A stretch of DNA of 64,000 nucleotides, from positions 1,723,501 to 1,787,500 of the forward strand of contig CM061247.1 in the NCBI GenBank assembly GCA_022605425.2, given 5' to 3'. Both the position numbers and the translations under genes were made by a program. The notes beneath the pieces were generated by a model, which was not told where the DNA came from, did not search any database, and was given only the letters and a program-made list of their open reading frames with translations. Positions 8,788-30,953 of this stretch are shown here, piece by piece (the stretch's first letter is position 1; every line of letters begins with the position of its first letter). The stretch is from Hamiltosporidium tvaerminnensis (taxonomy: Eukaryota; Microsporidia; Dubosqiidae).

Positions 8788-11144
8788 GTATTAAATTGAC
8801 CATATATATTATTTTTGGTGTTTAACAGTGATTAAAATGTGGTTGTGGCATGCGTTTGACAATAAATGAACATTTTTTTTGAACCCAGCTTTTTTTTAAG
8901 TTGATTCATGTACTTGAATTCGATCAAATGAAATCCCCTGGAAGTATTAATTGCAAATCGCTTAGCGATACCGTTTTTTTCTCATTTTCTCCTTTAATAT
9001 ATACAGTATCGAAAATTAGCCTTCTAAAAACATATTTTGTGAATTTTCGCTTATATCTAACTTATTTTGTTTATAACTTAAACTCTCGTTTGATTTTTTG
9101 AGATTTGCATTCAGATACGAATTTAGCATATCTATGCGCCGACTTGAAAATATAGAAGTTAAGTAGATAAAAATGATTACAATCGAAAAATCCACGTTTC
9201 TAAGCTTCTCTTTATATCTTACCTATTTCACAGTGGTTTTGACCTGGTATTTGTCATGTGTGTTTCATAAATTCAAGCTTACCCATAACCATCATAGATT
9301 TGAGCTTTTCAACTGTGAACAAATAATTTATTCTTATCAACCATTTAAATCAAAGATTTGTGATTAGATAATGATTTTAATTAACTTACTATGATTTTTA
9401 GATTTGATTTAAGCTCATTTTTGGGACTAATTTGAAAATATTGCATCGAAAAAAGAGATGTTTGAACAAAATTGTAATGAAATTCTATAACATATCTTTT
9501 TCATATGAGTTGTGCAGACAAGAAATTAATCAGAATAAAGATTTATGGAAAGGTTGCAAAAATAAAAATGGTAATCTATTATACAAATATAAATCGATTT
9601 TAGCACCGATGTAATAACAACCAAGCGAACAAACCCTTACAAAATTCTTTGCTATCTCACTTTTTTATAAAGCTTTCAAAAAATTATTAAGAGCGGCAAA
9701 AAAACATCCGTGCGTTTATTTTAGAAGCCTTTTGACTCAACTTTAGGCCTCTTCTAAAATAATTTTTTAACTGTTCAAAATTCTGTCTATAGAATTCCTG
9801 ATGACTAACCTTTTGAGAAATTATATACTTCGTGTCATTACTACCTTGTTTTTTCGACAGAATGATTGTAAGATTTGAATATCGAGACGTCTGCTCAATA
9901 AAAAGAGTGATTCTTGGCTAATGCCAGGGTTTAAGGTTTGGAATAATGTATTTCTGACTTTCTGTTCCGAAATAGATAGTTTTTCAAATATGTATCGACT
10001 ATGATAGGAATTCAATAATAAAATTTTTTTCCTTAGCATTACATTCAACCTGTTTAGCAAGCCGCTCATTAATTATGTTCTTAAAACAACAAGCTTTTGT
10101 TTTATAGTATCTATCAATTAAATTAAGTTGTTATATCAATCGTTAAAAAGTCTTTTTAATAGAATCTATATTAAATTTAATTTTTTTATTAAATTATCCC
10201 ATATTGATCTTCTCAACAAATGAGAAATTAATACATATTTAGTTTTGCTTAAAAATATTTTGCTTGCTTCTAGATCGGTTTCATATTTGCGATTTCAAAA
10301 AAAATATTTGGGTAAACAAATATCTATTGATACAATCGTAAAATAATATGTTAAATAAGAAATTTTTTAAATGCTTCATAGGAACTAAAATAAACAAGGT
10401 TTTTGAATTATAACCTACCGATGAAATCTATGGTGTTGCGAATTTATTTCTAATTTCAAAAATATAATTTAATAATTACACATACACTAACAATATTTTC
10501 AAAAATAAATCGAATTCAAATTCTGGCTATAAAAATCTTGCTTTTTTTTAATATTTTCTTATATCTTTTTAAACACTATATGTTAACCTTCTAATCTTAC
10601 TCTTCTCAAAAATAGGCTATAATATATTTTTCTTGTATTTTCTCCAGAATTTTAATCGGAATAACTAATTTACACGAACTTGCATAAAATAGATATGGCC
10701 AAACGAAATATAGATTAATTCATATAAATACTATTACTATACTACGGTTTATTAATTTGTCAAATTTATTTCTATATTCTAAACTATCATTTGATCAATA
10801 AAAAATCTTACTATAATTGGTCTAAGATTCTTAAAATATGATTTCATATTGCTAATACAAACATTCATAGATCTAGATATCTTTCTATGGAATTAGAATT
10901 GCTATTCCATAATATATTTCTGCATTCAGTTGAAAAATATATAAATCTAAACAATTACTAAAAAAAAATTTTAGTTAAATACAAATTAAATGAATTTGAA
11001 TTAATAATGTCCGTATTAGGTTAAAAACTGAAATATTTTTAGGACAAATAACATTATGAATTGTGAAATAATATAAATTTTACACAAATTGATGCGAATT
11101 GTGCAGACATTCAAGATTAAAAAAATGATATAGAGATCCTAATT
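8788..11144. other. Intergenic, no supportable gene
   Basis: Short frames at 8,901-9,101 and 9,173-9,367 share a weak similarity (both contain a Y-L-T-Y-F stretch) and may be an old local duplication. A minus-strand frame of 82 codons at 9,821-10,069 has a mixed composition but no start motif or recognisable domain. The rest is AT-rich filler. Confidence 0.35.
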
Positions 11145-12860
11145 TTATTTTTTAAGCTTGATTTCTTCTGTATTCCTCATCATATAATCATACCCATGTC
11201 CTTTTTTAAGCTTATTTTGTAAAACAAATCTGACTTTTTTATTAAATTCATTTATGAAGTTTACCTCATCATCATTTAAAATATTTAAATCCATCATTTT
11301 AAGTTGCAATGGCGCCATAGTAAGATTTTCTAATTTAAAAAAGTTTTCATCTTTTTTAACAACAACAAGGTCTTCTATTCTTATTCCATAATCATTCTCT
11401 TTATAAAATCCTGGCTCAATACTGAATATTTGATTTTCTTTCAACAAATCACCTTTCTGGTTTATTCCTGGCGGTGCTTCGTGTACATTTAAAAAATGAC
11501 CTACACCATGTCCAGTACCATGACCAAAATCCTTTTTCTCATTCCATAAAAACATTCTAGCTAATGTGTCTAAGACAGAAGTATCCCTTTCTTTTGGAAA
11601 TACTTGTCTCATTGCAGCCAACTGTCCTTTTAAAACCAAAGTAAAATCATGTTTTTGTTCTTTTGTTGGTTCTCCCAAATGTATAGTTCTAGTTGCATCT
11701 GTTGTTCCATAAAGATATTGAGAACCCGAATCAATCAGAAAAAGATTTTTACTTTCCACAATTGTTTCACTCGCACGATGATGAACAATTGCAGCATTTG
11801 GTCCATAGGCTGATATTGTATCAAAGCTAGGTGATATAAATCCGGGTAGCATTCGTTTGTATTCTTCCAGTTTATCTGCAATCTCCTTTTCCGTTTTACC
11901 AATATTATTTTCTATCCATTCAAATAGACTACAAAGTGAAATCCCATCATTAATATGAGCAAGCTCGAAACCTTTCAATTCGATTTCATTTTTCTGGCTT
12001 TTTAATTCCCCAATTAAATCACTTACTTCAACTTTTTTTTCACCCAATTCAGTAACAATGAAAGCATTACATCTGGAATTTACAAAAATCCGGGTTGCCT
12101 CGACACCTTTTAAAAAATCATAAAATTCTGAATATTTCCTTATTTCCACATCCTTTCTTTCGATCTCTCGATCAATGAATATTATGGCTTTGTCATTTGA
12201 GATAATACTGTATGCATAAAATACCGGATTATAATCAATATCACTTCCTCTCAAATTAAAAAGCCACGAAATACTATCTAATTCACTTAAAATAAAAACC
12301 TGGTCATCTGAAAGTTTTTCTCTCAATTTATTTATTTTATCCATATAATTTGATCCAGTAATATTTTCATTCGAATTTACATCTAAGAATGTATTCGCTT
12401 TAATTTTTTCCAAATCAATTATCTCATTATATGTTCTTTTTGGTTTATTCGGCCATATAGACTCTGTTAAATCATCATGAACAATCTCAACACCATTCGT
12501 TTCAAATTTACTTCTCATATCATTCAAACGACTGTATGAAATATTTTTGTAATTTATAGCTATTTTTTTTATTCCACCAATTGTTTGAACATATTCATAA
12601 ATATTTTCATCGATTCCCATTTTTTTAAGTTTAAAATCATTGGAAAGTTCTTTTTCCGCTTGAATAAAATATCTTGAATCAGTATATAAAACAGATGAAC
12701 CATTTTTTAAAATCAAAGCCATCCCATTTGAACCCGTGAAATGTGTTACGTACTCAATCAAATTATCAGAGGGTGAAATATATTCATTAATATGTTCATC
12801 TGCTAGGTTTATTATATATCCATCGTAATCCTTTGAAATAAGCAATTTATAGATTACCAT
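11145..12860 (-). CDS. Xaa-Pro aminopeptidase (M24B family, aminopeptidase P type)
   Basis: This metalloenzyme removes the N-terminal residue from peptides with proline in second position, probably in the cytosol since no signal peptide is seen. The frame is open from an ATG at 12,872, but the second ATG at 12,860 directly follows a CCC motif and is the better start, giving 571 residues. A creatinase-type N-terminal domain (with FTGSNGMALIL and the YTDSRYFIQAE stretch) comes first, then a middle domain, then the pita-bread catalytic domain. From the 12,860 start the metal ligands are about D377 (LIDSGS), D388 (TDATR), H451 (GTGHGVGH), E482 (SIEPG) and E496 (IRIEDL). Catalytic-type histidines lie in AIVHHRA and NVHEAPPG. 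All key residues are present and the length is close to human XPNPEP1, so the gene should be functional. It stands alone between gene-free flanks. Confidence 0.93.
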   Translation of the reverse strand: MVIYKLLISKDYDGYIINLADEHINEYISPSDNLIEYVTHFTGSNGMALILKNGSSVLYTDSRYFIQAEKELSNDFKLKKMGIDENIYEYVQTIGGIKKIAINYKNISYSRLNDMRSKFETNGVEIVHDDLTESIWPNKPKRTYNEIIDLEKIKANTFLDVNSNENITGSNYMDKINKLREKLSDDQVFILSELDSISWLFNLRGSDIDYNPVFYAYSIISNDKAIIFIDREIERKDVEIRKYSEFYDFLKGVEATRIFVNSRCNAFIVTELGEKKVEVSDLIGELKSQKNEIELKGFELAHINDGISLCSLFEWIENNIGKTEKEIADKLEEYKRMLPGFISPSFDTISAYGPNAAIVHHRASETIVESKNLFLIDSGSQYLYGTTDATRTIHLGEPTKEQKHDFTLVLKGQLAAMRQVFPKERDTSVLDTLARMFLWNEKKDFGHGTGHGVGHFLNVHEAPPGINQKGDLLKENQIFSIEPGFYKENDYGIRIEDLVVVKKDENFFKLENLTMAPLQLKMMDLNILNDDEVNFINEFNKKVRFVLQNKLKKGHGYDYMMRNTEEIKLKK

Positions 12861-12862
12861 AA

Positions 12863-12865
12863 GGG
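12863..12865 (-). promoter_or_regulatory. CCC start-proximal motif of the aminopeptidase gene
   Basis: The minus strand reads TTTACCCTTATGG, with CCC 3 bases from the ATG at 12,860. The upstream in-frame ATG at 12,872 would put the motif inside the coding region, so the motif decides the start. Confidence 0.6.
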
Positions 12866-12872
12866 TAAACAT

Positions 12873-13539
12873 TGTTTATATTATTTAAGTATTTTTTAAG
12901 GAATTACAAAGTGAAACATTTTTGAGACAGTTTCATCTAAATTTATTTGTTTAAAGTATATAGAATAAAGATATATGAAAACATGAGCAAATAAATCTTA
13001 TTTAACACAGTATTTATGAATTCCTATGAAACAGAGTATTGTGTTTGAGTTAAATATTAGATTTATTTGTTTAAACTGAGATTGGACAAAATTTATTAAA
13101 TCATAGAAAATGGTATTTTCGAGCAATTTTATATTTACAATATAATTGAATTTTTATTTAACAGTTTGCTGGAATAAAAATTTATTCAAATTTATTTTTC
13201 AAGAATATAAAAAAATAATACAATCATAAAAAAATTAGATTTTTTTCTTGATTTTATACAGTATTACTCTAATTTCAGCTTTTTTATTAAAAATTAAAAT
13301 ACTGATTTTCGAATTATATATTAATGTATGTTTGAGCAATAAAATTCTATTTATCTATTTGTTTCATTTGAATTAAAAAATTATCAAAAATATATATACT
13401 TCTGAAATTTAACTTTGTGATTTTATAAGTCTTTTTATCGACTATTAAATTTAAAAATTTTTTTTAAAACAAATATTTTATATATTAGATTTAAAATTGA
13501 AAAAAAAGGTAATACTTTTAAGTAATAACGTTCTAGGTC
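12873..13539. other. AT-rich intergenic, nothing seen
   Basis: Low-complexity A/T sequence with scattered short duplications such as TTTATTTGTTTAAA. No gene or element boundary is visible. Confidence 0.5.
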
Positions 13540-14330
13540 AAAACATTTTTTTACACCTTTATCATTTCCTTCTACCTCTTTAACCACCATCTTTTATTCT
13601 TCTATATCTGATTCTTCATTTATGTTTATTGTGGGTTCTTCTATTGTGATTCTTCCATCAAAATGAGAGATTAATTATTTTCAGATTTATATGTTTAACA
13701 CCACCTTACTTCGTTACCCGGTTGTTTTACAGGGCTTTTGGTTCCAGGTGCATCTAAGCTCTGCTAATAACCCCTTTTGACGCTCTTTCCCAGTTTCTTC
13801 GGCATTTTGTCTCAACTCAAGTCTTTTTCGTCAATCAAAGGTGATTTTTTTGAACTTCTCTTAAGTACTATATATTGAATATATGCCTCTGCATTCAAAA
13901 GTATTTACAGTTTTTTGAGCCATGGCCTACTGTATTTTATCACAATACCATCCCAAGTAAGCAAATAGGGGATTATCTCAACACTACACCTTAAAAGACC
14001 CAACTCATTGGATAGCAAGCCATAATTCCTAGGTTTTTCGGTTTCAACTATTTGAAGTGAATCTTGTGAAGAAATTCCTACTTTAATGGGTGTCATCTTC
14101 CTTTTATTCTCATCTAAAATATATCTATATCTAGTCTATTTTTTCGAATTTTGACATCAGTTTTTATTCCGATGTTCCCTCTTATCTTTGCATATGCATT
14201 ATCAAGAATTTCTTAAACTGAGTGGTTTCTAATTCTTTTTAAAGACTTAAATCGATATCTATTTAACAATAAAAGGGGCTAGCATCTAACCGTTTTATTA
14301 TGCCGTCTGGTATAATCATCACAAAAAAGG
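13540..14330 (-). mobile_element. LINE family A relic (R2/Dong-like, endonuclease region)
   Basis: A decayed minus-strand copy of the C-terminal part of a non-LTR retrotransposon. The open piece at 13,905-14,096 contains GISSQDSLQIVETEK, then SNELGLLRCSVEIIPYLLTWDGIV, which matches the restriction-like endonuclease region of the copy at 60,115-61,430. Weaker nucleotide similarity extends to both sides, from the acidic tail region near 13,560 to about 14,330. Many stops and indels make it non-functional, and it is more diverged than the other family A copies. Confidence 0.75.
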
Positions 14331-14638
14331 TTTAATATTCCATGAATAATTATAATTTCCCTTTAAATTTTAATTCTGTTTATCAAAACTTATCATTTTC
14401 GAAGTAAAAATTCAAACAGTTAAGAATTTTATTTGCAGAAATTCTACATTTTACAGATATTTATGCTTTTTTTATAAAACTTGCATCAAATAACCTCAAA
14501 AACCAAATTCTCACTATAACAATAGATACTTAATTGCAAATATAGATACTGCAACAATTTAAGCTTAATTTATTACATTTGGCATAGAAATATTTACATA
14601 ATCATTTATTCTTAAACTCAAAAAAATATTTTGAAGTA

Positions 14639-14875
14639 TATTCATTTATCATCGGCACTAAACCCTGCAGTGTTTGGCGGTCCTCAGTAATACCGCTCCC
14701 CGGTTTTTTTCCAGTGGGTTTGTTTACTTTTTCGGGTTTTGTAACAAGGTGGTTTTAGAGGGTGGGTTTTTACCCCTACGCCCAACACCAACATCAGAGA
14801 TCAGTCTCTTTTAATCGCTTCTTACGACAAGCATAGAATACACCAAGCCAATTGAGTTCCCGGGATGGTTGGGAA
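14639..14875 (-). mobile_element. SINE-like retroposon, family 2, copy A
   Basis: A 237-bp GC-rich element on the minus strand, flanked by 9-bp direct repeats TTTGAAGTA (14,630-14,638 and 14,876-14,884). It aligns end to end with the 236-bp insertion at 41,214-41,449. Shared blocks include ACAAACCCACTGGAAAAA, TATTACTGAGG and AAAAGAGACTG. The 3' end is GATGATAAATGA, and short GATGAT tails are typical of RTE-type retroposition. It contains no convincing frame. The source RNA and partner LINE are unknown to me. Confidence 0.7.
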
Positions 14876-15904
14876 TTTGAAGTACATTAATCTACCTAAT
14901 TGATTTAATGAAGCATTTTTTTTATAACATAAAAGATGTGTTTTATAGGTTTAATCATTACCCAAAAATGACTTTATAACAAAAAAAAGCTTAAACTCCT
15001 CGAAATCATAAAATCTACCTTTTGGTGTTTAAAATATAGAAAATTTTTTCATATAATCCAAATTTTTCTCTATTGTTTAAGCGATAAACGACACTATTCT
15101 TTCTGTATCTGCACTATATTTTTATTGATTATTCACAGATATAAACACATAAGACGAAATAGAACAAATTACAACAATAAAGCAAATTTTCATCTAGTTT
15201 GAATCATAATCGAGACATTTGTAAGTGATGATATTATTAACCTTTAAAATTAAGTATTATTATAAAAAAAACCTTTTAAAATGGGGAATGAATCAATGTA
15301 TTATATGTATAAATCATATAAAAAATCATGTGAAATATGCTTAATATTAGATCCATGGTTTTGAATTATTTCACATTTCAATTTATTATTATTAATGAAA
15401 TTAATTTATGAAATTTTCGAGAATATTCCAGAAATATATTTAATATTTAAATCGATGGTTTTATTTATGCATGTATATTAATTCGGATTTCTTTGCAAAA
15501 ATAGCAATGTGGAATTTTTTGATTTACGTAATAGAAGCTATAATATTATATGAGAGTAGCAGTTTTATTACCAAGGGTTTAGATATACACGGTGTTAGTA
15601 TTTTTGAAGTTTAATTTAGTATTTTGTACAACTATTTCTATTTATTCTTTTGTCTGGCAAGAATTTTCAATGAATATTCAGTTTCGGAAATATTAATATT
15701 ATATTTGATCGAAACATATGTTATTTTTGCTAAACTGACATATTATATGACAGTAAATATCGGCTATATAAAATATTTACAATTGATTGTAAATTTGTTA
15801 TTTTATGCCACATTGTACAAAAATTTACCGGGTGTTTATGATACAATTCTTTGGAGATATTATAGATACCTGGGCGCTAATTCTGATATAAGAATGTTTT
15901 TTTA

Positions 15905-15924
15905 GTAAGTTTTTATCTAATTAG
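15905..15924 (+). other. Probable 20-nt spliceosomal intron
   Basis: The stretch begins GTAAGT and ends CTAATTAG, so the branch-point-like CTAAT abuts the 3' splice site. It separates two coding blocks of the same membrane-protein gene. A 1-nt correction in the preceding T-run is needed for the frame to continue. Confidence 0.5.
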
Positions 15925-16190
15925 GTTCGCAAAGCTTTGGAAAGTTTCTGGATTTATTTTATATATCTAAATTTTGTAACTTTTATTGCTATAATTTCCC
16001 ATGGGCTTGAACTTCAGAAACGTGGATTACATATTCTTATAGAAATCATAACTATATCCTTCTTGACATATTCTTTTAGAAAAAACGTCCATGAAAACTT
16101 AAAACTGAAACTGTTAACTATTCTAATAATAGGACTAAGATTCATGTATCAAATTTATCGGGCCTATTTATCCTATATTGCGAACAAATT

Positions 16191-16213
16191 GTAAGTTAAC
16201 TATGTCTAATTAG
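16191..16213 (+). other. Probable 23-nt spliceosomal intron
   Basis: It begins GTAAGT and ends GTCTAATTAG. Without splicing, the frame hits TAA at 16,192. With it, phase 2 is kept and 45 more codons stay open. The shared ends with the 15,905 intron make chance unlikely. Confidence 0.7.
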
Positions 16214-16349
16214 TGTAAACATCAATGCATTATATGGGCTCATTATTGTGTTTTTATTGTTTTTTCTTTCTGTCATGGATTGTTTATATTATGGTTCTGA
16301 ACTTAAAGATATACTTCTAAAGAATTCGGATCAAGATAATGATAATTAA

Positions 16350-17104
16350 ATTATTTCATGGTAATAAAAAAATTGGAAGTTTTCTATTTCTTTGTTTCTT
16401 ATAAAATTTTCGATTTTTTTAGAATATTTTATTTGTTTCTATAACAATATAACTAACGATTAGTGTTTTATTTTCGGTTTTTTCTTGATAACAAATTTTT
16501 TTAGCATATTTAAATAAAATTTGGAACTATTATTATTAAAAAGAGAGTGAAATATTTTCTTCATTTCTATTCTTTTAAATTTTTTGATTAGTATTTTAAG
16601 TTCGCGATATTGGTAAATCGATTTTAAAACATAATTTCACATTGAATTTACATTTTTATAGATTAAATAAGTTAAATATTATTTAATTTTACAAAAATCT
16701 TTACAATTATAAAGAATTTGCATGTTTAAATGTATATATCAAGCTTTCTCTCTAAAAAATTGTCTTATTTTTGTTTCTCACGTATGGATGGACTAAATTG
16801 TTCATGATAACAATCTTGATTTCGATTAATGAGCCTTTGAATTCGATTTCTAAATATTTTGGCTGAATTTCGGTTTTGACACTGTAAATTATTAAAATTA
16901 AAATTAAGGTTAAATTTACATTATAATATACATTTATATCAATAATTTTAACTTAATAGTCTTAACATGATATAAATTTGTAAACTTTAAATTTACATTT
17001 CTTAAATTTGCTCATTGTGGGAGAACCATATTGAAAATATTTTTTTGGATTGTATCTCAAATCAAAAGATATTTAAATGCCAATATATTTTTTAGATCTT
17101 GGAG
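16350..17104. other. Intergenic, no gene seen
   Basis: AT-rich sequence. No frame, tRNA-like fold or element end was found. Confidence 0.5.
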
Positions 17105-17835
17105 GTGGAGGGAGGATAACAACATAAAAAACTTTCTGCTTGGCAATGAGTGTGTGAAACTGGTGTGAGATCATTGTTTGGATTTTTGGTGAGATTACAA
17201 CTATACTACATCTTCGGTTGTTCCATGAGAGTTGTTATGAGGAGAAGAGGTCTTAGAAATGAAGAAACTTTTTCTACAAATTTATTTGTAGTTTTTTATG
17301 TAACTAGATTGCAGACCGCAGCTGAACATGTATGTAATTGCCATGTAAAAGCATGGAAACCTAGCCTTGCTCACTCGGGTTAGAAGACTTAGCGCTTGGG
17401 AGATATAAAACAAAAAACTATTAAAAGCCGGGATAGCTAAGTAACAGGTTATACCTGTTGGTATGACATTGCACTGTCTGGGTGAACCCCATGTAAATCT
17501 CTGAAATATATCTTAGCTAGAAGTTTATTGGGTTCAGAAAGTGTAGAGTAAGTGGGAATGCTGCATAGTCTTGGGGGAGCCCAGGGAGGGGGGGCTTCGG
17601 CCTTCGATCACACTCCATGCAACGGACATTAACGAAATCTGGGCAATTGCCTCGCCTATAAATTAGGTTTTACACACCTGGTAGGTGAAAGGCTTTGGGA
17701 CGTAGGTATCGCAGGGGTTACGATGGCGTGTTGAGGTAGCAGTTAATTATGTTAAACCTAGAACTGCGTTAATGTCATCCAAATAAATATAACACTTGCC
17801 ACTATGCAAAAATATGTGATACTTTTAAATAAAGT
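17105..17835 (+). repeat. R1 interspersed repeat, copy a
   Basis: A GC-richer island of about 730 bp that starts GTGGAGGGAGGATAAC and ends TGATACTTTTAAATAAAG. It is nearly collinear with copies at 26,038-26,765 (minus) and 32,173-32,902. A 77-codon frame at 17,150-17,383 is partly conserved between copies, but single-base indels in other copies break it. A TATA-like GATATAAAAC in the middle and an AATAAA near the 3' end would fit a solo LTR or a transcribed non-autonomous element. No clear target-site duplication was found, so the class is open. Confidence 0.8.
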
Positions 17836-19789
17836 CAGATATAGGCTCGAGCTTATTCCGATATGTTAATTACCTAAAATTACAAAAAAAATATGTATTT
17901 TCGATTGAATTGCAGAATGAAAAAAACAAACTTGTTAGGTACAATAAAAATATGACTCATAGATGAAAAAACATACGTTTCTATGTAGAATATTATGGAC
18001 AATTTCAATTGAAGTCGCTCTTTAACTAAATACATTTGAAAAATATTTTGATAAATTTAAATAATAGCAAAAGTGTTCCAAAATCACAGATTAACCCATA
18101 CATTTTACATAGAGATTAGAAAATAATTTTGAAACTTTACAAAACTGTTCATACTGGTTCAAGTTTAGATAGATATAATCTTATCATTCTAAATCAAGCG
18201 AATTTATTCTTAAAAATATTTGAACTGGGAATGATATTGTTAGTTTAACTAAATTAATCATTCGTTTCCAGTTCTATTTTACTTTATGATGTTGCGGATA
18301 AAGATATAGAACGCACTCATATTCTGATATATCAATGTCCTAAAATTTCCTGGCTCCATTCCTCTTCAGAAAGACGCGTTTAAGGTGTCGAATTACTTTA
18401 GCGGACACGAATTCTTCTTTTCTATCGGCCAAACATCTTACTTTTATGTTTCATAAGTCATAGTCAAATTTCCACGCCGAATCATTAATTTTTGAGCCAG
18501 TACTTATATTTTTCCATTTGTTTCCTTTAAACTTTCTAATTCAGAATTCATGAGCTTGGCCCATGAATTTATTTAATTTGATGTTCAAATTCAGCCTCTC
18601 TGTTCCAAAGACTTGACACTTCAAAACCAATAATTCGTATCATTTTTTTTCATTAAACAAGGTTTTTTCTGATACCATTTAATTTTTGTAAATCTATATT
18701 ACCGGTTTTTTAATATCTTACATAAATTTCAAAGCTTCAAGCCTTTGACTTTTTTTTGCAAGTTTATTATTTTTTTGAAATTAAAAGTAATAATAACCAC
18801 AGGATGTATTTCTTTTGCAAATATAAATATGAAAATCCGAATTTTATGAAAAGAGAAATGTTAAAAATGAATCATAACTATAAATTTACGATAAAATGAA
18901 ATCTATAATATTTCAAATAGTCCCCAGAAACACATCAATTTGAATAATTCAACAAGAATATTTTTATGTTACCTTGTTTAAAGGTGGGCTCATGAAAATA
19001 AAACTATTATGTTTTTAGATTAAAAATGGAGGTCTCATTTATAGTTTTTCTCATTGTTTAGTAATGAGTGTTTAATTATATTTCTAGAATCTCCACTGAT
19101 AAGTAATAAAATATTGTTGTAATAATAGCAAATTTATTCTACTATTGAATTTTATACAAGGTGTTAGAACAATAAATGTAAATATTTGAATTTTTTGATT
19201 TTAAAAATATGTGGAATCGTTGTTTTTTTTATTAAATTCCAATCTTAAATCATTTTTTGTTCTTAAAATGTATAAGTCGAAAAATTATTTTGTTTGGATT
19301 GATTTTGAATTCTTTTTTTAATAATTTGAAAAGTCTGCATATAGCATTTCCTATAATGTCTATTAAGAATTTTGGATGTGAGATGAATATATTTTTTAAG
19401 ATTTTTAAAATTTTAAATTAATTTTTACTTGTGCAATAGGATGTAATTCTATCAAATTGGGCTCAAAAAATGTTAAATAAATAGAAATCATAAGATTAAA
19501 ACTAAACTTTTGTATTATATTTTCGATTATGCCTTTTCATATTTGATAAATTTGATTTTATAGAGGTATGCAAATTTAAACATAAAAAAAAAGAAAAAAA
19601 AGTAACGGCAGAAGAAGACTATAAAAAGAGCTTATTAGCAAAAACAAACTAAAATAGGAAATTTCTAGTTTATTTATTAAGAACACTAAAGATAATATGA
19701 GTTTCATATTTTCATGCATTTAATCAAATAATAAATTAATAAAGTTTTTTATATTTTTTAAAATGACTTAATTTGATGCTCCCGACTTC
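17836..19789. other. Intergenic, no gene seen
   Basis: Mostly AT-rich. The patch at 18,350-18,620 is somewhat GC-richer and may be an old transposon or gene remnant, but no frame survives in it. Homopolymer runs dominate the rest. Confidence 0.4.
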
Positions 19790-21060
19790 ATACCATAAAA
19801 ATTTATGGTTGCAAATTTTACACTCTTATAAGAGACACTACAACCCCATAAGAGCTCGGGTCTCTTTAACGATCTTTTTTCTGTTCTTATCTATCTTGCG
19901 CCCTTGTCTTCTACCGTATTTCATTAAGCATTCTCAGATTCTTATTGGATGTATCTATTCTTCTGTTACAGGGTCTGACTTTTCTTCTTTTCCCATTGGC
20001 TTTATACAACTGGACTTGACTTTCACTCCAATCAGGTGACGTTCATAATACATGTCCTAGGTATCTTAATTGTCCCTTTTTATTTGACAAATTATCATTT
20101 ACGATATAGAATATAAACTTATTGATTCTTTCAATATTTTTCGCACAATTTTTGTATTTTGATCATATATTTTCAAAGTAATTAGCTTTCTCACGCGTTA
20201 AACTCGCTTAATCTCTATATGTTATATCCGGGTCAAAGAAGTATTCATTAAAACCTGTCTTATTATAATCCTAAAAACATTCATTTTTAAATACCTCTTA
20301 TATATCTTAATTTCATCGAGGATTGCAATATCCGGTAGACTTGTTATCTGAATTTATTAGTTCCTTAATTTTTTCATTGCTTTTGATACTTTCAATTATA
20401 TGAGTTTCGGAGTATATAGCTCGATAAATCTGTAAATTTTAATATGTCAATTGCTAGGCAATTTATTAAGTTACACAGCATCAATGTCATTTCAATATCC
20501 TTTATTTTGTTCTGATTTATCTTTAGAGCGTAACTTGTCGATTTTTTTCTATGGCGTTAAAGAAAGTTTTATGTCTTCTTGGTTTTACCAATTAATACTT
20601 AGATCGCCTCAATACATAAGTAGAAGAATTTTCTGTTGATAAGCATATTTATTTTTAAAGTTTGAGTTTCTCGATAATGCGTTTCATTGCCTGATTAAAT
20701 AATCTACACGATAATGTGTCTCCTTGCTATGCCCCCTTGCTTATTCTAAAATTATTCGAACTATCATTTGCTATCAATATTTTTATCTTTCTTATCAACT
20801 TTGAACAAATTTTTAAAACCTCAAGAGCTAAACTTGTATTTACCATCAGATACAATTATAAGCTTGTTTAAAATCCCGGAAGGTTAATTTTAGGAATATT
20901 ATGCTGCTAGCATTCTTCCAAGATTTTTCATTATAAATATTTGATATTCTTCGATTGACTTTAGAAATCAGTATGGATAATTCTTCTGCTCATCCCTAAC
21001 CTATTTGCAACAATTCTCGTATAACTTTATAACCTGGATTTGACAGAGATTTTCTTCTAT
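19790..21060 (-). mobile_element. LINE reverse transcriptase relic (family C)
   Basis: Read on the minus strand, this region gives interrupted peptides typical of a non-LTR reverse transcriptase. The clearest, near 20,640-20,745, is QGDTLSCRLFNQAMKRIIEKL, matching the conserved QGD-x-LS-x2-LFN block (written here only as a short fragment of a dead element). Downstream, near 19,960-20,040, HLIGVKVKSSCIKPMGKEEK is the kind of basic tail found after such a domain. Stops occur every few dozen codons. The relation to families A and B is unclear, because the regions preserved do not overlap. Confidence 0.55.
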
Positions 21061-29939: not shown

Positions 29940-30953
29940 ATGGAGTCTTATAGACTCAATGAACTGGTGAAAAACAAAAATAACCTTATTATTGTTCATA
30001 CTACAGAATATTCTTATCTTATCCCAAATATTCAATCTGAAATAGAAAATTTAAATCAGAATTGTAATGTCTTTATAATTTTGCAAAAAGATTTAATTTG
30101 TAGTCAAAAAATAACTGCACAATACGATTCTATTATAATTATTGGTTCGTTATGTCCACTTCATAGTGATTTCAAAAATTCATATATTTTTAAATTTGAA
30201 CTTCCCATACAAAATACTTCGATTTTGTTTGATGGTCGAAGAAAATTATTTATAGATAAAATTTTTAGAACGGAAAATACTTTTTCGAATGAAATTCAAT
30301 GTACAAATAATATAAATTTGGACAAAAAAAATCTTGAAAATGATGATATTTTGATTGTAAGTCACAATCAGAAAATTTTTGATTACTTTTTTTATGAACA
30401 CTCATCGTGCGATCCATATTTTACAGAAAAGATTACAAAGAAAGACAAATGCAGATTTCTGATTTCAAGATGGAGTAGAATAGAAAAAATTAAAGAAAAA
30501 AATGTCTTTGGGATATTTTTCGCTTCCAAGGAATACACAGATTTAGCCAATGAAGTGAAAAGATTTCTATTAAAAAAGGAAAAAAGAGTGTTTTTGTTCT
30601 TTTTGAAAGATATTTCATCCGAAAGACTGACAGCAATTGATGGTTTAGAATGTGCTGTAATAATTGATTGTCCTCTGTTTATAAACTTTGACATACAGTG
30701 TCTCATTCCTGTTGTGACTCCTTATGAAATTACATTAGCCTATGAAGAACACTGGGATGGTCGATATTTTATTAATAGATTTGAAGTTTCTGAACAACTT
30801 TGCGAATCAGAAATCGTTAAATATTTTGATCCTGTAAATGTTATTGTTAGAAGCGATTTCAAAGGATTGGAATATGATGGTGAGGATGTCAATGAAATAG
30901 AAGAAGGTAGAAAAGGAATACCAAGAGAATATAATCTGGATTATGAATTTTAA
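29940..30953 (+). CDS. DPH2: Diphthamide biosynthesis protein 2 (Dph1/Dph2 family)
   Basis: Dph2 pairs with Dph1 in the iron-sulfur complex that adds the 3-amino-3-carboxypropyl group to a histidine of elongation factor 2. The 337-residue frame keeps the family's three-domain layout. Domain 1 has the YDSIIIIGSLCPLH stretch, equal to the G-x-x-C cluster Cys region. The middle domain has NVFGIFFASKEY and the following helix. Domain 3 ends ECAVIIDCPLF, then VVTPYEITLAYEEHW, a typical CP...P-TP-E-x-x-A pattern. The W-D-G-R-Y end and the weak first Cys site favour Dph2 over Dph1. No Dph1 is in the window. A second start is not needed, because CCCC sits right before this ATG. The minus-strand frame inside it is a shadow. 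Confidence 0.82.
   Translation: MESYRLNELVKNKNNLIIVHTTEYSYLIPNIQSEIENLNQNCNVFIILQKDLICSQKITAQYDSIIIIGSLCPLHSDFKNSYIFKFELPIQNTSILFDGRRKLFIDKIFRTENTFSNEIQCTNNINLDKKNLENDDILIVSHNQKIFDYFFYEHSSCDPYFTEKITKKDKCRFLISRWSRIEKIKEKNVFGIFFASKEYTDLANEVKRFLLKKEKRVFLFFLKDISSERLTAIDGLECAVIIDCPLFINFDIQCLIPVVTPYEITLAYEEHWDGRYFINRFEVSEQLCESEIVKYFDPVNVIVRSDFKGLEYDGEDVNEIEEGRKGIPREYNLDYEF

Follow-up and report, generated by a model that had tools for sequence, protein, structure and literature searches.

Strict branch motifs and short introns are already known in microsporidia, and short introns have been described in the microsporidian Hamiltosporidium tvaerminnensis itself. Introns of Encephalitozoon cuniculi are reported to span 22-76 nucleotides (nt; PMC3629993) and to carry the branch motif CTAAYTT (PMC2483917), and those of Trachipleistophora hominis have been summarized by the expression GTA[AG]GT..TAATT N0-4 AG (PMC3486916). 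For H. tvaerminnensis, the published account gives 98 predicted introns, 17 of which, picked for good Iso-Seq coverage, were examined by Iso-Seq and had a mean length of 28 base pairs (bp), with splicing at 7.5-92.3% (PMC10542269). Fixed short distances between branch site and AG are described in other species with few introns, such as Yarrowia (2 nt; PMC2483917), and very small introns are reported for Mikrocytos mackini (16-17 nt; PMC10245619) and the Bigelowiella natans nucleomorph (18-21 nt; PMC6461891). The red alga Cyanidioschyzon merolae is described as combining a U6 ACUGA box with GUAAGU donors (PMC8163875, PMC10581693), and as lacking U1, METTL16, and N6-methyladenosine in the U6 box (PMC8163875, PMC6461891). 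Here we analyzed a 64-kilobase (kb) stretch of the H. tvaerminnensis genome (contig CM061247.1; the window), in which two stretches of 20 and 23 nt interrupt a gene whose product is hydrophobic and probably has multiple membrane spans. We conclude, with a probability of about 0.93, that both are ultra-short U2-type spliceosomal introns, lying in a probably degraded copy of this membrane-protein gene and belonging to a genome-wide class with two fixed signals. The less expected parts of this picture are a change in U6, two length classes, and deposited gene models that miss the short introns.

Two ultra-short intron candidates in a duplicated gene

As the sequence-only reading had proposed, a 20-nt stretch at 15905-15924 and a 23-nt stretch at 16191-16213, which correspond to C2:1739405-1739424 and C2:1739691-1739713, both start with GTAAGT and end with CTAATTAG. 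Both therefore have GT..AG ends and a GTAAGT-type donor, and within CTAATTAG a TAATT-type branch motif stands a few nt from the AG, the motifs being those given in published microsporidian descriptions (PMC2483917, PMC3486916). The pattern GTAAGT-N2-30-CTAATTAG has exactly two matches in the window, which is 26.5% GC, compared to a mean of 0.02 in dinucleotide shuffles, and none of 100 shuffles reached two. Upon removal of the 23-nt stretch, an 89-codon frame becomes continuous with 45 further codons; the open frames thus confirm the earlier claim that this excision restores phase.

Judged from the sequences, the best local evidence that the window stretches are introns is the second intron of a third copy of the gene, L017 (C2:1678500-1684000), which shares 37% identity with the window copy in exon 2. 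Intron 2 of L017, near C2:1680264, lies at the same codon and in the same phase as in the window but is 19 nt long, and its sequence, GTAATTATTTTCTAATTAG, is unlike that of the window except at the ends. When the spliced exon 2-3 products of the window and L017 were compared, 131 residues aligned with 40% identity (blastp expectation value (E) 3.7e-20). Removal of intron 2 hence restores a frame conserved in L017, whereas for intron 1 a conserved frame is restored only in L016, a duplicate ∼46 kb from the window copy, and not in the window copy itself. Intron 1 is identical in L016, where its excision joins the exon 1 and exon 2 frames exactly, in phase 0. The blastn match that reveals this duplication reaches nearly to the ends of L016.

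Both duplicates carry defects. The window copy has a one-base frame offset in exon 1 close upstream of the intron 1 donor, and an in-frame stop at 15612-15614 is common to the window copy and L016 but absent from L017. Owing to this stop and the frame offset, the window copy is probably degraded. L016 additionally has a stop in exon 2, an indel in exon 3, and ACAATTAG as its intron 2 motif. In L017, all three exons and intron 2 appear undamaged. Its intron 1 (20 nt, at the same place) keeps GTAAGT..CTAATT but has GG as acceptor; the acceptor may truly be other than AG, the copy may be dead, or the assembly may be wrong here.

Six further loci (L025, L041, L037, L079, L013, and L026) are membrane-protein-like genes, only distantly similar, that contain one or two introns (21-27 nt) in comparable positions. 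Their first intron is in phase 0 in L037 and L079, in phase 1 in L025 and L041, and absent in L013 and L026; by manual alignment, its position in L025/L041 is ∼11 nt from that in L037/L079. We considered these six as members of the window gene family and rejected them, as pairwise scores link them only to each other, several weakly; for this reason only L016 and L017 are counted as proven relatives. A Pfam scan of three of these look-alikes, L013, L025, and L079, gave no match.

Probable short introns across the genome

The genome-wide motif search suggested with the sequence-only reading was run on 21,638,905 bases in 17 contigs. The strict motif had 19 matches compared to six for a reversed control, and a wider form, GTAAGT-N1-20-CTAATT-N0-4-AG, had 74 compared to 26. 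Under a fixed rule for joining open reading frames (ORFs) across a site, 21 of 48 motif sites joined two frames. Control sites in the same sequences did so in only 2.5-5% of cases: 52/2069 for GT..AG (a 15% random sample), 4/89 for GTAAGT..AG, and 6/124 for GT..CTAATT..AG, with Fisher P values for motif versus control of 1e-19, 4e-8, and 4e-9, respectively. The test was confined to sites with distinct 100-base neighborhoods, at least 300 bases from a locus end, and 17-31 nt long; similarly, our survey of motif sites for coding support took in only distinct 120-base neighborhoods. Because the rule misses multi-intron genes, 21 is probably a low figure. Separately, a repeated sequence, GTAAGTTTTTTTAACTAATTTTTAG (L042 at C2:1818901-1818925, C7:551-575, C4:53260-53284, C14:33245-33269, and others), has several copies near contig ends; it comes after a short MKL(C/F)VFN-like frame, and none of the tested copies connected open frames.

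Genes with known domains provided additional evidence. For instance, a mitogen-activated protein (MAP) kinase-like gene on C14 has introns of 25 and 20 nt, at C14:731097-731121 and C14:731175-731194, and once these are removed its model can be aligned through both junctions to MAP kinases of solved structure (best E 9.9e-65), so that a 20-nt intron of the window form is backed by an unrelated, well-known fold. In a ubiquitin/NEDD8-like gene, the junction of a 21-nt intron at C9:539466-539486 is collinear with the known domain. Pfam matches also span the junctions of introns of 21 nt in a cytochrome b5 gene, of 22 nt in PPPDE and PLD genes, and of 23 nt in cold-shock and FAR-17a genes; the PLD-domain gene has introns of 23 and 22 nt, and a PLD paralogue has one of 25 nt. 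Lastly, for ribosomal proteins S4e, L44, S17e, S19, S8e, and L5 and for Sec61, an intron of 26-31 nt follows an ATG, and the reading frame starts directly after that ATG or a few codons downstream of it.

We assembled a hand-chosen set of 30 accepted introns, among them both window introns and one identical duplicate. Seven, all in ribosomal and Sec61 genes, measure 26-31 nt, with 4-5 nt from the predicted branch A to the AG. Lengths in the remaining 23 run from 19 to 27 nt, and 13 of these have 2 nt in this interval. The length difference between the two classes has a P value of 1e-4 in this accepted set, which is biased because most sites were found with one motif. The published 28-bp mean may reflect the longer class.

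Deposited Hamiltosporidium proteins bear on this as well, as all three that we examined are truncated or lack exon sequence at such introns. P0001 ends in ...RAQKM, a read-through of its 21-nt intron 2, while its 23-nt intron 1 has already been removed. The H. tvaerminnensis kinase P0002, from a 3.1-kb contig, is without the mini-exon between the short introns and a few residues after it. P0122 from H. magnivora ends in ...IYNQ, where an unspliced donor would end it, which suggests that the intron site is common to the sister species. The short class is thus partly missed by deposited annotations.

Splicing machinery and other features of the window

The genome encodes U2, U6, and Prp8, which together with the findings above supports the earlier proposal of microsporidian-type ultra-short introns with the branch motif fused to the acceptor. 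U2 was found at two loci (74.7 and 72.4 bits, above the Rfam cut-off), both with the branch-recognition sequence GUAGUA. The Prp8 PROCN domain was detected by Pfam profile; its matches (C1:854651-856172, L080) fall in different open frames and are set apart by low-complexity tandem repeats. The Pfam models of Slu7 and Prp18, used with the same profile approach, had no match in the genome, but the controls of those runs were also silent, so their absence is not established.

A full-length U6 scored 63.5 bits, above the Rfam cut-off (C12:1091599-1091718, L029), and this is the only locus in the genome within one mismatch of the U6 core. Its box reads ACUGAGA instead of ACAGAGA (AACACUGAGAAGAUUAGC versus the consensus AUACAGAGAAGAUUAGC in the Rfam alignment). 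A second U6-like match of 27.3 bits, below the cut-off and A/T-rich, looks like a relic, and a scan of viral contigs for the U6 variant found nothing. The changed base is reported to face donor position +4, and the ACAGA box to be unchanged in all 240 yeast and outgroup species covered (PMC10581693). With ACUGA opposite +4, a GUAAGU donor would gain a third Watson-Crick pair. Donor +4 is A in 30/30 accepted introns, though most were found by requiring GTAAGT. A GTATGT-donor pattern had 41 matches compared to 19 in the control, of which by eye 17 came from one repeat and five were copies of another. Duplex energies for U6 and donor (ViennaRNA) were too small to carry weight. We found no report of an ACUGA U6 in microsporidia, in a literature search that missed key microsporidian intron and small nuclear RNA papers.

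The features of the host locus are collected in Table 1. Branch A positions were placed using the E. cuniculi motif CTAAYTT as published (PMC2483917).

Table 1. Coordinates of the intron pair, its host gene copy, and the surrounding duplication, in window positions
Feature	Position	Strand	Remarks
Exon 1 remnant	15615..15904	+	96-codon open frame 15615-15902, then 2 bases to the donor
Exon 1 counterparts	loci L016, L017		sequence comparison
Intron 1, 20 nt, GTAAGT...CTAATTAG	15905..15924	+	phase 0, as predicted from the duplicate L016
Fused branch-site/acceptor motif CTAATTAG, intron 1	15917..15924	+	predicted branch A 15920, 2 nt before AG
Exon 2	15925..16190	+	89-codon open frame; identity 93% to L016, 37% to L017
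Intron 2, 23 nt, GTAAGT...CTAATTAG	16191..16213	+	phase 2
Fused branch-site/acceptor motif CTAATTAG, intron 2	16206..16213	+	predicted branch A 16209
Exon 3 with stop codon	16214..16349	+	FVNINALYGLIIVFLLFFLSVMD... versus SLNIVSAYSITILFMLLFLSIMD... in L017
Inverted segmental duplication, part	11060..20924	.	blastn 96.0% identical over 9.9 kb to C2:1688000-1697900 (L016)

The sequence-only reading had also placed a Cwc25-like splicing factor in the window, which our searches did not support. Pfam gave no Cwc25 match in the 10 ORFs scanned, out of 16 in the window that reach 90 amino acids. The other six are 3127, 30392, 51224, 52069, 56158, and 60168; three of these (51224, 52069, and 56158) nearly duplicate scanned ORFs, and 30392 and 60168 overlap other ORFs. 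A search for a Cwc25 motif across the six window frames, limited to stretches of 30 codons or more, found none, nor did the Cwc25 Pfam model on the genome, a weak negative given that its controls were silent too. By Pfam, the window does hold an M24 metallopeptidase (aminopeptidase P-like) ORF at 11145-12872 and a diphthamide-synthesis ORF at 29940-30953. The window also contains nearly duplicated ORFs of DnaJ-like, RING-variant, and C2H2-like zinc-finger type, the copies lying in inverted orientation (38100-39579/51224-52614 and 45427-45996/56158-56727).

Alternatives, proposed mechanism, and comparison with known systems

Several observations weigh against the intron reading. The window introns are predictions from DNA sequence, as are the placement of the branch A and the pairing of U6 with the donor. 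When the 20-nt stretch is removed from the window copy, the 96-codon frame hits a stop at the junction and exon 2 is left unjoined; the host gene may be dead, as both duplicates bear disabling changes. Genome-wide, 27 of 48 motif sites failed the ORF-join test, some of them repeats or parts of multi-intron genes beyond the reach of the rule, and all four sites of 16-18 nt (L063, 16 nt; L024 and L065, 17 nt; L022, 18 nt) were without coding support. Of the 74 wider-motif matches, testing drew on all but eight (C14:1063505, C14:1145757, C14:1291565, C14:1425721, C15:422595, C15:1402171, C16:49103, and C16:167015). A looser CTAAY version of the motif had 135 matches compared to 126 in the control, hardly any excess, and given this near-background count we dropped it as a search pattern.

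This last result is what one would expect if the motifs arose by chance in AT-rich DNA and came to lie between open frames only by coincidence, and even the wider pattern had 26 control matches to its 74. Yet the window shuffles, the excess of the wider motif, and the ORF-join test led us to reject a chance origin, which the domain-collinear junctions in unrelated genes, the kinase and the ubiquitin-like gene among them, make very improbable. Scarcely less improbable is that the stretches are in-gene insertions handled without the spliceosome, for instance by programmed frameshifting or translational bypassing. Their very small size and the DNA-only nature of the window data would allow this, but the donor and branch/acceptor motifs are constant and match the expression given for microsporidian introns (PMC3486916); the presence of U2, U6, and Prp8 and the Iso-Seq evidence of splicing reported for H. 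tvaerminnensis (PMC10542269) likewise argue for splicing. We consider it rather probable, by contrast, that the window gene is a pseudogene and its stretches are introns by descent that are no longer of use. The stop shared by the duplicates and not by L017, the one-base offset before intron 1, and the exon 2 stop, exon 3 indel, and altered intron 2 branch motif of L016 all favor this. On the other side, the full intron signals are kept in the window copy, and dN is 0.032 versus a dS of 0.156 for two coding pieces compared between the duplicates (nonsynonymous and synonymous divergence, respectively), although these values come from only 24 nucleotide changes, a count that includes those in one stop codon that was itself excluded from dN and dS. 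Introns in other genes are unaffected by the argument, and, as it concerns the window copy only, loss of the gene is compatible with the stretches being spliceosomal introns of a genome-wide class.

For that class, we propose that only two fixed signals remain of the intron: the donor GTAAGT, and a branch site merged with the acceptor, usually as CTAATT followed by 0-3 nt and AG. U2 would pair with the CUAAU branch site, leaving the second A bulged, and U6 ACUGA would hold the donor through three Watson-Crick pairs with AGU at +4 to +6. Branching would then occur at the second A of CTAA, after which the first AG 2-5 nt on may be taken without scanning. The introns would fall into two tiers. 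Those in ordinary genes would measure 19-27 nt and mostly have 2 nt from branch A to AG; those at the start of genes for Sec61 and ribosomal proteins would measure 26-31 nt and have 4-5 nt there. Such short distances may make Slu7 and Prp18, second-step factors that bridge longer ones, dispensable; from work in yeast, their loss would fit a short branch-to-AG distance. Introns of 19-21 nt that hold a donor, a branch site, and an acceptor show how little sequence a spliceosome needs, and a natural change in the U6 box would give another independent test case for co-evolution of donor +4 and U6.

Taken together, H. tvaerminnensis resembles E. cuniculi as described in its GTAAGT donor, CTAAYTT-type branch motif, and short introns. 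It differs in that coding-supported introns reach 19-20 nt and that most of those accepted (23 of 30) are in genes other than the ribosomal and Sec61 ones. The T. hominis expression fits 29 of the 30 accepted introns, the exception being the 19-nt L017 intron with GTAATT. In extreme shortness, the closest parallels are M. mackini and B. natans, whose reported introns are equal or shorter. The earlier suggestion that 20 nt is among the shortest thus stands as to shortness and not as a record, given 16-17 nt in Mikrocytos, 18-21 nt in Bigelowiella, and already 22 nt in E. cuniculi. B. natans is described as having a canonical U6 ACAGAGA and no identifiable donor motif, in contrast to the ACUGAGA box and strict donor motif of H. 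tvaerminnensis. It is instead C. merolae that is reported to share this U6 change and this donor, again in a genome with few introns, though it is an unrelated red alga whose 27 introns are not described as ultra-short in the accounts cited here. We give even odds that H. tvaerminnensis arrived independently at the Cyanidioschyzon solution, U6 ACUGA with a near-fixed GUAAGU, and combined it with a two-tier intron set.
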